NCBI RefSeq assembly: GCF_001292625.1
Contig: NZ_LAJH01000012.1
Location: 434,001 to 498,000, forward strand
Reading direction: 5' to 3'
Source of the DNA: Shimia sp. SK013
GTDB lineage: Bacteria > Pseudomonadota > Alphaproteobacteria > Rhodobacterales > Rhodobacteraceae
DNA length: 64,000 nt
Part shown: positions 523 through 17,364 of the stretch, one piece after another
How the letters are laid out: each line of letters starts with the position of its first letter
Position numbering within the stretch: the stretch's first letter is position 1
Made by a program: the position numbers and the translations under genes
The notes under the pieces: model-generated
Seen by the model: only the letters and a program-made list of their open reading frames with translations
Databases searched by the model: none
What the model was told of the DNA's origin: nothing

Positions 523-1884
523 ATGACGCAGACTGTCGAATTACCTATCTGGCTGTTTATCCTGATCATGCTGTTTGCGGCAGTCACGGCGGCCAGCCAC
601 TTTTTGTTTCCATCCGTTCGCTGGTTTTTCCGTCGTCGAATGGAGAAGGCCGTGGCGCGGCTCAACGAGCGGTTGGAGCGGCCAATTGAGCCGTTCAAGC
701 TGGCGCGGCGTTACGACATGATCCAGCGGTTGATTTACCAGCCAGATGTGGCGCAGGCGGTGACCGAACATGCGGCAGAAACCGGGGTGCCGGAGAACGT
801 CGCCTTTGAAGAGGCCAAGCGATATGCGCGCGAGATTGTGCCGTCGTTTTCGGCGTCGGCCTATTTCGGATTTGCCATCCGTTTGGCGCGGTTTCTGAGC
901 CGGGCGTTGTATCGTGTGCGGCTGGTGCATTTTGATGAGGACGGGATCAACGCCATCCCAAAAGACGCAACGGTGGTCTTTGTGATGAACCACCGCAGCA
1001 ACATGGATTACGTTCTGGTGACCTATCTGGCGGCGCAGCGATCGGCGCTGGCTTATGCGGTTGGGGAATGGGCGCGAGTATGGCCGCTGAGCCGGTTGAT
1101 CAAGGCGATGGGGGCCTACTTTATCCGGCGTAAATCGCGCAACGCGCTGTATCGTAAGGTTCTGGCGGCATATGTGCGGCTTGCCACGCAAGGCGGTGTG
1201 TCGCAAGCCATGTTCCCCGAAGGCGGGTTGAGTTTGGATGGCGCGCCGCAGCAACCGAAGTTGGGATTGCTCAAATACATCACCGACACGTATGAGCCCG
1301 GCGGGCGGGACGTTGTGTTTGTGCCGGTGGCGCTGAACTATGACCGCGTGCTTGAGGACCGGATCCTGATCAACGCTCAGGCCAGCGGCGGGCGGCGTTT
1401 TGACGCCAAGATCAGCGTGGTTGCGGGTTTCTTTTTTAAACAGATCTGGCTGCGTATCCGCGGCAAATATCACAAGTTCGGATATGCGGCGGTAAGCTTT
1501 GGCACCCCGCTTTCGCTGTCGGAGTTCAGCAACACCTATGAGGGCGAATTGGCTAAGCCGCTTGCCCGCGAATTGATGGAACGGATCAATGGTGTGGTGC
1601 CGGTGCTGCCAGCGCCGATGGTGGCTGCGATTATCCTAGCCAGCGACGCGCCGATTAGCCGGAGCGCGATTGAGACGGCCTATGACGGCTGGATGCAAAA
1701 GCTGGCCCGTGAGCACATTCATTTGCCGCGGGGCGATCTGAGTTATGCGACCGAGGCGGGGTTGCGCATTTTGGAAGAACGCCGCGTCATTCTGCGCCAC
1801 AACGGTACATTTGAAGCCAACCCTGAACGGCGTGATATACTTTCTTTTTATGCCAATTCCATTGCACATCTGCTGAAGGAATAG
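523..1884 (+). CDS. glycerol-3-phosphate/lysophospholipid acyltransferase (PlsB/PlsC-like)
   Basis: A 453-residue protein with one N-terminal membrane helix (about residues 8-30) and a PlsC-type acyltransferase domain. The catalytic HX4D motif is visible as NHRSNMD at 156-162 and the substrate-binding block as FPEGG at 231-235. Family members transfer acyl groups to glycerol-3-phosphate or lysophosphatidate at the inner membrane; which acceptor is used cannot be told from sequence. It is longer than plain PlsC (about 240 residues), with an extra C-terminal region of roughly 150 residues. The ATG at 523 follows AAGGGTGAG. It is divergent from meaA and precedes ccr on the same strand with a 148-base gap, so it may be co-transcribed with ccr or only adjacent. 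Confidence 0.85.
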   Translation: MTQTVELPIWLFILIMLFAAVTAASHFLFPSVRWFFRRRMEKAVARLNERLERPIEPFKLARRYDMIQRLIYQPDVAQAVTEHAAETGVPENVAFEEAKRYAREIVPSFSASAYFGFAIRLARFLSRALYRVRLVHFDEDGINAIPKDATVVFVMNHRSNMDYVLVTYLAAQRSALAYAVGEWARVWPLSRLIKAMGAYFIRRKSRNALYRKVLAAYVRLATQGGVSQAMFPEGGLSLDGAPQQPKLGLLKYITDTYEPGGRDVVFVPVALNYDRVLEDRILINAQASGGRRFDAKISVVAGFFFKQIWLRIRGKYHKFGYAAVSFGTPLSLSEFSNTYEGELAKPLARELMERINGVVPVLPAPMVAAIILASDAPISRSAIETAYDGWMQKLAREHIHLPRGDLSYATEAGLRILEERRVILRHNGTFEANPERRDILSFYANSIAHLLKE

Positions 1885-14793: not shown

Positions 14794-15216
14794 TTAGTTT
14801 AGCGTCTTTTCCATAAGGCTGGCAGCTATTTGGCTGCCGTTGTCGCGACGGTAATAGTCAGGCCGATTGGCGGTGATTTGGTATCCTGCGGCCTGATAGA
14901 GAGCAAGTGCCGCGGCGTTGTCTTCGGCGACTTCGAGGAAAGCGCGGGTGGCGCGTCGGTTCTGCGATTCGCTCTCAAAGGCCTTAAGAAGTGTGCGGCC
15001 CAGGCCTTTGCGGCGGTGACTGGGGTGCACGGCCAGTGTCAAAAGCTCGCTTTCGTCGACAATGCAGCGCCCCAAGGCAAAACCCCCGTCATCAGAGACG
15101 CAGAAACAGTGCGGGCTGGACAGAAGGCTCGAGAATTCGTCAGCCGACCACGCACGGGTGTCTAAAAATGCAGCAGAGTGCAATGCGGCAAGTGATTTGA
15201 AATCGGGGTCAGCCAT
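14794..15216 (-). CDS. rimI: ribosomal protein S18-alanine N-acetyltransferase
   Basis: A 140-residue GNAT acetyltransferase. The acetyl-CoA binding motif is LAVHPSHRRKGLGRTLL near residue 70, followed by the RimI-like FLEVAEDNAAALALYQAAGYQI. RimI acetylates the N-terminal alanine of S18 in characterised bacteria. The ATG at 15216 overlaps the tsaB stop by eight bases; a TTG one codon upstream is less likely. The tsaB-rimI pair is a common arrangement and supports this call over a generic GNAT. Confidence 0.88.
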   Translation of the reverse strand: MADPDFKSLAALHSAAFLDTRAWSADEFSSLLSSPHCFCVSDDGGFALGRCIVDESELLTLAVHPSHRRKGLGRTLLKAFESESQNRRATRAFLEVAEDNAAALALYQAAGYQITANRPDYYRRDNGSQIAASLMEKTLN

Positions 15217-15799
15217 CAAGAATCACTGGCGCTGGATCGCGAGGCGGGGCGGCGTCGGCGGGCTTGATATACAGTGGTGCCGGACGCGGCGGGTTTTGAT
15301 CGAACTGCGTTGCGGCGATGCGCGCGATGTTGCGGACCTGCGTTGCCGGATCGACAAGCGGGCGAATTAGGTTTGCGTCCAAATCGTCCGCCGGAACAAG
15401 TTTCGGGGTCGGGTATCCCTCGCCTAGGACATAGGCCTGATCGCGCGGCGCAGGGACCATAGCGATATGCGGTGTGGCCGCGTCCAGTGAGGTGGCTGCA
15501 AAAGCCGACACGCCGACGGCTGGAATAGCGAGACCAAGAGCAAGACCGCGCGCTGCGCTGACGGAAATTCGGATACCGGTGAAATTGCCGGGCCCGACGC
15601 CGACGCCGATGGCATCCAGATCGGCAAAGGTCGTGTCGGCCTCAGCCAGAACCTCTTGCAAAAGTGGCATGAGGCGTTCGGCCTGACCGCGTTTCATATC
15701 TTCGCTTATCAGAGCCACAACGTTGTCACCCCGTAACAGGGCGGCAGACACGTGTGGGCCGGAAGTGTCAAACGCAAGGATCAGAGGGGAAAAGGTCAC
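15209..15799 (-). CDS. tsaB: tRNA threonylcarbamoyladenosine synthesis protein TsaB
   Basis: A 196-residue protein of the ASKHA fold. It starts with the phosphate-1 type motif LILAFDTSGPHVSAAL and has the family segment GVGVGPGNFTGIRISVSAARGLALGL near residues 65-90. TsaB dimerises with the metalloprotease-like TsaD and, with TsaE, makes t6A37 on tRNAs reading ANN codons. At 196 residues it is slightly shorter than the E. coli protein (231). It is followed by rimI (eight-base overlap). Confidence 0.92.
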   Translation of the reverse strand: MTFSPLILAFDTSGPHVSAALLRGDNVVALISEDMKRGQAERLMPLLQEVLAEADTTFADLDAIGVGVGPGNFTGIRISVSAARGLALGLAIPAVGVSAFAATSLDAATPHIAMVPAPRDQAYVLGEGYPTPKLVPADDLDANLIRPLVDPATQVRNIARIAATQFDQNPPRPAPLYIKPADAAPPRDPAPVILDG

Positions 15800-15808
15800 G
15801 GGCGTCTC

Positions 15809-16249
15809 TCAGATGGCGTCGTTCAACGTGTTGCGTGCGCTGCCAAAAACGCGCGGGGCGTCGTCTTGGAGATGCAGCCAAGGATAGGCGGCGTCCGCAT
15901 GACAGTGCAAAGCGGGAGCCAGGTCTGCGGCCTGATCGATCAGACCAAGCGGAACATAGACCTGATCGGGAAGATACTCAAACCGTGCCATCAGTGGAGA
16001 GCCACATGCGTTGCAGTTCCAGCGCGTGACACCTTGGGTGTGGGATATGCCGGTGCCTTGATCCGGTTTTGCCGAAAGGTGATCGGCGCCAAAGGCGGCA
16101 AAGGCAGGCAAAGGTGCGCCGGTCCAGCGGCGGCAGTCCGAACAGTGGCAATAGGCAACTGTGGCGGGCAGGTGGTCAGAAACCAAAAGGACGGCGCCGC
16201 AATAGCACCGTCCTGTGATCTTGTGATGTGTGGTGCCGTCAGACGGCAA
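15809..16249 (-). CDS. GFA family zinc-binding protein
   Basis: A 146-residue protein with the cysteine pattern of the glutathione-dependent formaldehyde-activating (GFA) fold: CYCGA near residue 15, CHCSDCRRWTG near residue 34 and CNACGSPL near residue 79. These residues bind zinc. Members are often annotated as S-(hydroxymethyl)glutathione synthase, but the reaction has been questioned and most paralogues have unknown substrates. The only fitting start is TTG at 16249, inside the end of nfuA (11-base overlap), preceded by GAGGTG. Co-transcription with nfuA is therefore likely. Confidence 0.82.
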   Translation of the reverse strand: MPSDGTTHHKITGRCYCGAVLLVSDHLPATVAYCHCSDCRRWTGAPLPAFAAFGADHLSAKPDQGTGISHTQGVTRWNCNACGSPLMARFEYLPDQVYVPLGLIDQAADLAPALHCHADAAYPWLHLQDDAPRVFGSARNTLNDAI

Positions 16250-16802
16250 CCGGGCGCACCTCGGTCACTTCGGGAATGTAGTGGCGCAGCAGGTTCTCGA
16301 TGCCCATTTTCAGGGTCAGCGTCGACGATGGGCACCCGGCGCAGGCGCCCTGCATGTGCAGATAGACTACGCCGCGGTCAAAGCCGTGGAAGGTGATGTC
16401 GCCGCCGTCTTGTGCCACAGCCGGACGCACGCGGGTGTCTAGAAGCTCTTTGATCTGGCCAACGATTTCGCCGTCTTCGCCGGTGTGTTCTGCGTGACCC
16501 GAAGGTGCAATCGCATCTCCGGCCATAACCGGTTGACCGGATTGGAAGTGCTCCATGACCGCGCCGAGGATGGCGGGTTTGATGTGATCCCACTCGATGT
16601 CGTCGCCTTTGGTCACGGTGACAAAGTCATTGCCGAAGAAAACGCCGGACACGCCGTTCACCGCAAAGATGCGCGTGGCGAGTGGCGAGGCGGAGGCGCC
16701 TTCGGCCGTCGGGAAGTCGGCCGTGCCTGTTTCCAGCACGGTCTGGCCGGGCAGGAATTTCAAAGTGGCCGGGTTCGGCGTGGATTCAGTTTGAATGAAC
16801 AT
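16239..16802 (-). CDS. nfuA: NfuA/NifU-type Fe-S cluster carrier protein
   Basis: A 187-residue protein with an N-terminal Nfu_N domain (MFIQTESTPNPATLKFLPGQ) and a C-terminal NifU-like domain holding the cluster-binding CXXC, C154 and C157 (GACAGCPSS). It matches the alphaproteobacterial/mitochondrial NFU1 type that delivers Fe-S clusters to apoproteins in the cytoplasm. A promoter with TTGACA and CATATC and an Irr-type palindrome lie directly upstream (separate entries), consistent with iron control. It heads an operon with the GFA gene. Confidence 0.93.
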   Translation of the reverse strand: MFIQTESTPNPATLKFLPGQTVLETGTADFPTAEGASASPLATRIFAVNGVSGVFFGNDFVTVTKGDDIEWDHIKPAILGAVMEHFQSGQPVMAGDAIAPSGHAEHTGEDGEIVGQIKELLDTRVRPAVAQDGGDITFHGFDRGVVYLHMQGACAGCPSSTLTLKMGIENLLRHYIPEVTEVRPVAV

Positions 16803-16828: not shown

Positions 16829-16857
16829 GATATGCGCCCGCGCAGCCCGTCTGTCAA
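16829..16857 (-). promoter_or_regulatory. sigma-70-type promoter of nfuA
   Basis: On the minus strand TTGACA (16857-16852), a 17-base spacer and CATATC (16834-16829) form a near-consensus promoter. Transcription would start near 16822, giving a leader of about 20 bases. Confidence 0.7.
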
Positions 16858-16860
16858 GGA

Positions 16861-16875
16861 TTAGAATGATTCTAA
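16861..16875. promoter_or_regulatory. Irr box (iron control element) upstream of nfuA
   Basis: TTAGAATGATTCTAA is a perfect palindrome around one central base. It matches the alphaproteobacterial ICE motif (TTTAGAA-N3-TTCTAAA core) recognised by the haem-responsive Fur-family regulator Irr. It ends four bases upstream of the nfuA -35 hexamer. Irr is known to control iron-using genes in this group; binding here is inferred. Confidence 0.72.
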
Positions 16876-16908: not shown

Positions 16909-17364
16909 TCAGGTGATCGCTTCGAGTTGTTCTTTGGTCAAGTCGCCGGGCACTACCGTCATTGGCACAGGCATGGAGCCCGAGTTGCGCGACAATTGCG
17001 TGACCAGCGGGCCAGGGCCTTTGCGGTCGTTGTTCGCGCCGAGCACAAGAACGCCGATGTCGGTGTCTTCTTTGACCTCAGACAGGATCTCCGCCACGGC
17101 CTCGCCTTCGCGGATTTTGAGTTCCGGGTCTACGCCCTGACGGTCGCGCATCCATTTGGCAAAGACTTCAAAGTGCACTTCGATGCGTTCGCGGGCTTCT
17201 TCGCGCATCAGGTCGCTGACGCCGATCCAGTGGTTGAATTCTTCGGGCGCAATGACGGAAAGCACTTTGACGCCGCCGCCGGTGTTGGCGGCGCGCATGG
17301 CGGCAAAGCGCATGGCGTTCAGGCATTCGCGGCTGTCGTCCAGTATCACAAGGAACTTGCGCAT
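16909..17364 (-). CDS. universal stress protein (UspA family)
   Basis: A 151-residue Usp domain protein: MRKFLVILDDSRECLNAMRFA with the conserved early aspartate, and a C-terminal VLGANNDRKGPGPLVTQL segment corresponding to the ATP-binding G-2X-G-9X-G(S/T) region (a G-rich stretch is present though not canonical). Usp proteins are cytoplasmic stress responders, with function usually unknown. ATG 17364 is chosen because GGGAGACACC precedes it; the frame upstream is low quality. It lies between ilvE and nfuA with over 100 bases on each side, so it appears to be a single-gene unit. Confidence 0.85.
   Translation of the reverse strand: MRKFLVILDDSRECLNAMRFAAMRAANTGGGVKVLSVIAPEEFNHWIGVSDLMREEARERIEVHFEVFAKWMRDRQGVDPELKIREGEAVAEILSEVKEDTDIGVLVLGANNDRKGPGPLVTQLSRNSGSMPVPMTVVPGDLTKEQLEAIT

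Follow-up and report, generated by a model that had tools for sequence, protein, structure and literature searches.

A conserved Irr-type box at the nfuA promoter of Shimia sp. SK013 and a putative hairpin device past the nfuA stop codon

The nfuA locus and its promoter

We analyzed a stretch of 64,000 nucleotides from Shimia sp. SK013 (contig NZ_LAJH01000012.1, positions 434,001 to 498,000), referred to below as the window. It carries nfuA, the gene of an Fe-S cluster carrier, with a palindrome upstream of its promoter and a set of genes arranged downstream in the order nfuA-(gfa)-tsaB-rimI. The features, in window coordinates, are as follows.

16909..17364, minus strand: gene of a universal stress protein on the upstream side of nfuA, followed by the gap that contains the box
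16861..16875, minus strand: ICE or Irr-box palindrome TTAGAATCATTCTAA, predicted from its conservation and from the same box at mbfA, ccpA, iscR and dps in sister genomes
16852..16857, minus strand: -35 element TTGACA, 3 nt downstream of the box
16829..16834, minus strand: -10 element CATATC, after a 17-nt spacer; its CATAT core is invariant in 24 genomes of the genus
16239..16802, minus strand: nfuA, 187 aa, Fe-S cluster carrier (Nfu_N PF08712, 1.3e-32; NifU PF01106, 3.7e-29)
16188..16214, minus strand: terminator-like hairpin of 11 bp, AGGACGGTGCT-ATTGC-GGCGCCGTCCT and then (partly) TTTTGGTTTC, in the first codons of the GFA gene
15809..16249, minus strand: GFA-family gene (PF04828; E 9.2e-21, 74.5 bits against a cut-off of 24.3), whose TTG start overlaps the nfuA stop
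15209..15799, minus strand: tsaB (TsaD/TsaB family, tRNA t6A modification), by profile match
14794..15219, minus strand: rimI-type GNAT acetyltransferase gene, by profile match

The initial annotation had described a perfect palindrome, four bases from a near-consensus promoter. The palindrome is indeed exact at 16861-16875, where the plus strand reads TTAGAATGATTCTAA, with arms of 7 bp (TTAGAAT/ATTCTAA) around one central base. Read on the minus strand, the box is followed by TCC, a gap of three bases and not four, then by TTGACA, 17 bases, CATATC and the nfuA ATG at 16802. The -35 element agrees with the E. coli consensus at 6/6 positions and the -10 element at just 3/6; for this reason a generic sigma-70 scan did not call the nfuA promoter. 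Compared with the TTTAGAANNNTTCTAAA-type inverted repeat, the nfuA box agrees at 12/12 core positions and at 0/2 of the outer pair, and it was the sole match in the 64-kb window when up to three mismatches were allowed.

Conservation of the box and its association with Irr

Exact TTAGAANNNTTCTAA sites occur twice in the 4.05-Mb genome, at nfuA and at iscR, and the reversed control pattern does not occur at all. Every one of the 25 genomes of the genus has one to three exact sites, against 0 or 1 for the reversed pattern. A search of the Shimia sp. SK013 genome at three mismatches was non-discriminating, with 65 matches versus 107 for the reversed control. The box, the -35 and the -10 are kept at all 24 nfuA loci of the genus while the spacer and flanks drift, and the invariant or nearly invariant positions are TTAGAA, most of TTCTAA, TTGAC and the CATAT core. 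Nine of these 24 genomes (L009-L017) have TTTAGAATGAATCTAAA at nfuA, all with one and the same deviation from the palindrome, located in the right half-site.

Among 80 loci from named Rhodobacteraceae, 75 have the box at the same place with scores of 11-14 of 14, and it is absent from five. The distance to the -35 element is 3 nt at 86 of the 98 sites found by pattern, with gaps of 4, 5 or 9 nt at a few. A combined pattern of box, gap and TTGAC (TTAGAANNNTTCYAANNNTTGAC, at most one mismatch) was present in 211 of 394 family genomes, nearly all of different genera, and the reversed pattern gave about 10 matches; the figure of 211 counts pattern matches, whose placement at nfuA was checked for part of them. 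Thus the scan of relatives for the ICE motif, which the initial annotation had called for, found the box retained upstream of nfuA and not missing from close relatives. Aliiroseovarius and Jhaorihella have a normal nfuA promoter without the box, so the box is not indispensable. The palindrome is short, as a chance AT-rich inverted repeat beside a promoter would be, but such an accident would hardly be kept over some 200 genera with reversed-pattern controls near-absent, and we give that explanation practically no weight. The nfuA palindrome is more than chance.

Three Fur-family proteins are encoded in the genome, namely a Fur/Mur-like protein, a Zur-like protein and Irr (NF045677, E 1e-61, 206 bits against a cut-off of 170; also above the NF045678 cut-off), the gene of which adjoins fabA. 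The second exact box of the genome precedes iscR, which opens the isc-suf cluster, by about 90 bases. For the exact-box loci obtained from the genus, 25 in number, we typed the gene at each, and all were assigned: nfuA (5), iscR (11), mbfA (7; L132, L138 and five more sister loci), dps (1) and ccpA (1; L145). In gel shifts, Irr of Rhodobacter sphaeroides binds the promoters of mbfA and ccpA. At low iron, expression in the irr mutant exceeded that of the wild type 8.0-fold for mbfA, 1.8-fold for ccpA and 2.4-2.9-fold for suf genes (PMC3413700). R. sphaeroides Irr was also found to bind a site at isc-suf P3, TTAGAAATATTCTAGA, some 50 nt ahead of the start (PMC6956336). Since the boxes of the genus sit at mbfA, ccpA and isc-suf, the motif keeps the company of known Irr targets. 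A box match is no guarantee of binding, because R. sphaeroides Irr left a predicted box at the iscR promoter P2 of its own genome unbound (PMC6956336).

Some further observations concern individual loci. The box in L145 (1501-1515, genome G021) is directly upstream of a gene for a di-haem cytochrome c peroxidase (ccpA-like). An exact box in L144 (1501-1515, genome G016) lies near a Dps-type ferritin gene (931-1401, minus strand), and dps may be an Irr target in that genome. The box at iscR loci of the genus (L139/L035, about 1500) is common to iscR and a divergent alpha/beta-hydrolase-like gene (MPEVIFPGPEGRLEGRYHP...). The gene mbfA appears to be missing from Shimia sp. SK013, while several sister genomes have a boxed mbfA; the only VIT1-family gene found, G000:C12:36475-37101 (L185), was considered as mbfA and rejected, as it has neither a rubrerythrin domain nor a box.

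The box also tends to be absent where Irr is absent. From the 394 genomes, 19 that are at least 90% complete gave no full-length Irr match, and the strict pattern was found in 3 of these compared with 193 of 328 others (Fisher p 2.5e-4). A 17-base pattern with fixed outer bases proved too stringent for a clean division between genomes with and without Irr. The region upstream of nfuA was read directly in the 19 Irr-less genomes and in 11 Irr-bearing ones missed by the strict pattern. L171, an Irr-less locus truncated at a contig end, was left out. The box is absent at nfuA in 15 of the 18 informative Irr-less genomes (6-9 of 14), several of which keep the promoter, and 8 of the 11 Irr-bearing genomes have a variant box (10-14 of 14). 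The three Irr-less genomes with a box (G420, G127 and G179) are fragmented into 270-470 contigs, and one of them gave a partial Irr match; the assemblies may simply have missed Irr. In a quick tree with many open forks, at least one loss is clean, that of G149, which is placed near Roseovarius in a clade that has the box. Several Irr-less genomes branch deep in this tree and some of their Irr-bearing neighbors are also without the box, and the co-absence of box and Irr is therefore partly a matter of shared ancestry.

Could another iron regulator, such as IscR through its Iron-Rhodo-box, Fur/Mur or Zur, read the nfuA box instead of Irr? IscR controls Fe-S genes in Rhodobacteraceae (PMC4618611), and the Fur/Mur-like and Zur-like proteins are encoded in the same genome. 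However, the box is found at proven Irr targets and is mostly gone where Irr is gone. The Iron-Rhodo-box is described in PMC4618611 as a 19-bp RirA-box-like palindrome, represented in our comparison by quoted IscR-like sites, and the IscR-box-like sequences quoted for R. sphaeroides, TAGACGACCTTGTTGTT and GACTATTTCTGTCGG (PMC6956336), are unlike the nfuA box. We regard reading by one of these other regulators as improbable. The assignment of the nfuA box to Irr is strongly supported at the level of sequence, and the match to the ICE motif claimed in the initial annotation gains from the conservation, from sister genomes that have the identical box at proven Irr targets, and from the absence of the box in most Irr-less genomes. 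The nfuA box may be a new Irr-type site, possibly one already predicted: our literature search found no paper linking Irr to nfuA, and the Irr targets of Rodionov et al. (2006) lay outside its reach.

The hairpin past the nfuA stop and the downstream genes

The GFA gene was proposed by the initial annotation to be co-transcribed with nfuA through its TTG start and so to belong to an iron regulon. The arrangement agrees with co-transcription, as far as gene order, overlap of the TTG and a good Shine-Dalgarno sequence (GAGGTG) are concerned, and an overlapping TTG at -11 is present in 11 of 12 GFA loci with a resolvable start. The gene is an optional insertion, however, located between nfuA and tsaB in 21 of 110 loci, the usual form being nfuA-tsaB-rimI. 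The genome has seven GFA-family (PF04828) genes, and the one linked to nfuA has the sequence GRCYCGAV where most others have G.CLCG or similar.

While examining co-transcription we met a hairpin 24 nt past the nfuA stop, within the GFA codons for GRCYCGAV. The hairpin region has a z of -3.1; for the GFA gene itself z is -2.3, and 0 of 100 synonymous versions were equally stable. Of 104 family loci, 98 have a hairpin of -15 kcal/mol or below within 90 nt past the nfuA stop, and in 94 of the 98 it starts 15-60 nt past the stop, typically at about 20 nt. The best hairpins past the stop average -18.5 kcal/mol versus about -13 at the start and end of nfuA (64 loci sampled). The same hairpin place was seen in L005-L028 and L050-L129.

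Where GFA is lacking, tsaB mostly abuts nfuA, and the hairpin falls within the part of tsaB that encodes DTSAAHCAAALL (81 loci, mean z -1.2 versus synonymous shuffles, the per-locus scores being modest and the loci related). When GFA intervenes, no hairpin is seen in tsaB (21 loci, mean z +0.2), and the GFA genes of the genus have z below -1.7 against synonymous shuffles in 10/10 loci. Fifteen GFA paralogs elsewhere have no special stability (mean z -0.06), and outside the genus roughly half of the loci with GFA show none either. Where tsaB begins at a distance of some 90 nt or more (L024, L072 and L076), the hairpin is intergenic, with a T-rich tail. The U tract after the stem is moderate at the Shimia sp. 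SK013 locus and weak in most tsaB-type loci. The hairpin follows position and not gene, because it is normally in tsaB, is in GFA when GFA is inserted, and is then gone from tsaB, as it is from GFA paralogs.

The simplest reading is that the hairpin acts as the nfuA terminator or as a 3'-end barrier to mRNA decay. We treat it as a lead with good statistics, and the device as putative. As a terminator or decay barrier it would mean that GFA, tsaB and rimI need not share the iron response of nfuA, and its place in the first codons of GFA probably keeps GFA out of Irr control. It seems rather unlikely to us that a single unbroken transcript makes all three genes full members of the iron regulon. 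They lie on the same strand as nfuA, overlapping or nearly abutting, with the Shine-Dalgarno sequence before the TTG start, and a translating ribosome could melt the hairpin. Against this stand the conservation of the hairpin past the nfuA stop, its link to position rather than gene, and the presence of GFA at so few loci. Should read-through occur, tsaB and rimI would be affected equally with GFA. The case for GFA as an iron-regulon member is thus weak, and the question why a zinc protein of the GFA type should be under iron control is not forced by the data, with the hairpin separating nfuA from the rest of GFA.

Whether evolution rebuilds the hairpin in the first codons of whichever gene comes next, insulating an iron-controlled nfuA from tsaB in Rhodobacteraceae, is in our judgment an evenly balanced proposition. 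If it does, an unrelated protein would be constrained by the hairpin in its codons and perhaps in its N-terminal residues, and the hairpin would amount to a natural experiment in which selection places RNA signals inside coding sequence.

Proposed control of nfuA and comparison with known systems

We propose, with a probability of roughly 0.85, that the box is an Irr operator, that nfuA belongs to a small Irr regulon, likely under repression, and that the hairpin partly uncouples the downstream genes. The regulon would be centered on Fe-S cluster assembly, with nfuA and iscR-suf in Shimia sp. SK013 and mbfA, dps or ccpA added in sister genomes. Haem-free Irr binds the ICE and haem removes it (review PMC7762939). 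When haem or iron is short, haem-free Irr would occupy the ICE directly upstream of the -35 element and most likely repress nfuA; when haem is available, Irr would be released and nfuA transcribed. Soon after the nfuA stop the transcript would be punctuated by the hairpin in the first codons of the next gene, leaving the level of nfuA at least partly uncoupled from those of GFA, tsaB and rimI.

Repression at low haem or iron is most likely by analogy, since mbfA, suf and ccpA of R. sphaeroides are higher in the irr mutant at low iron. Irr can work either way depending on the position of the box (review PMC7762939), and the same box could serve to activate nfuA at low iron: its center is about 11 nt upstream of the -35 element, and the near-fixed gap would suit contact with RNA polymerase. 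E. coli NfuA is needed under iron starvation, to go by the title of a reference listed in PMC4618611. However, ccpA and isc-suf P3 of R. sphaeroides, with a similarly placed box, are higher in the irr deletion at low iron, the inferred box-to-start geometry of nfuA resembles that of R. sphaeroides targets with the box 40-50 nt upstream of the start, and the gap of 4, 5 or 9 nt at a few sites also speaks against such contact. Activation is possible but unlikely, and we favor repression.

If correct, this proposal places the Fe-S carrier NfuA and the suf operon under one haem-sensing regulator in an abundant marine bacterial family, with a geometry of box and promoter that is unusually constant at nfuA. 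The Irr boxes of R. sphaeroides mbfA, ccpA and isc-suf P3 have the core TTAGAA-N3-TTCTAA in common with the nfuA box (PMC3413700, PMC6956336), and at ccpA and P3 the box is about 40-50 nt upstream of the start, as inferred for nfuA. Irr targets in R. sphaeroides include Fe-S assembly genes, as they would here. The differences are that the target is nfuA, that the box is locked 3 nt from the -35 element, and that binding at nfuA is predicted from sequence. With the control of suf and iron-storage genes in Rhizobiales (review PMC7762939) the likeness is a haem-sensing Irr acting through the ICE on iron-use genes, whereas here there are only about two strong sites per genome, mainly at Fe-S assembly genes.

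For the hairpin, the closest comparison is with operons of E. coli, in which mRNA structures inside a downstream coding sequence protect the upstream message (PMC5927463). The likeness is a stable, conserved hairpin within the coding sequence of the next gene. Unlike the E. coli structures, the nfuA hairpin is much nearer the upstream stop (about 20 nt) and moves to whichever gene follows, and at some loci it has a T-rich tail like that of an intrinsic terminator. The intercistronic hairpin of the puf operon of Rhodobacter capsulatus is a comparable message-protecting structure.
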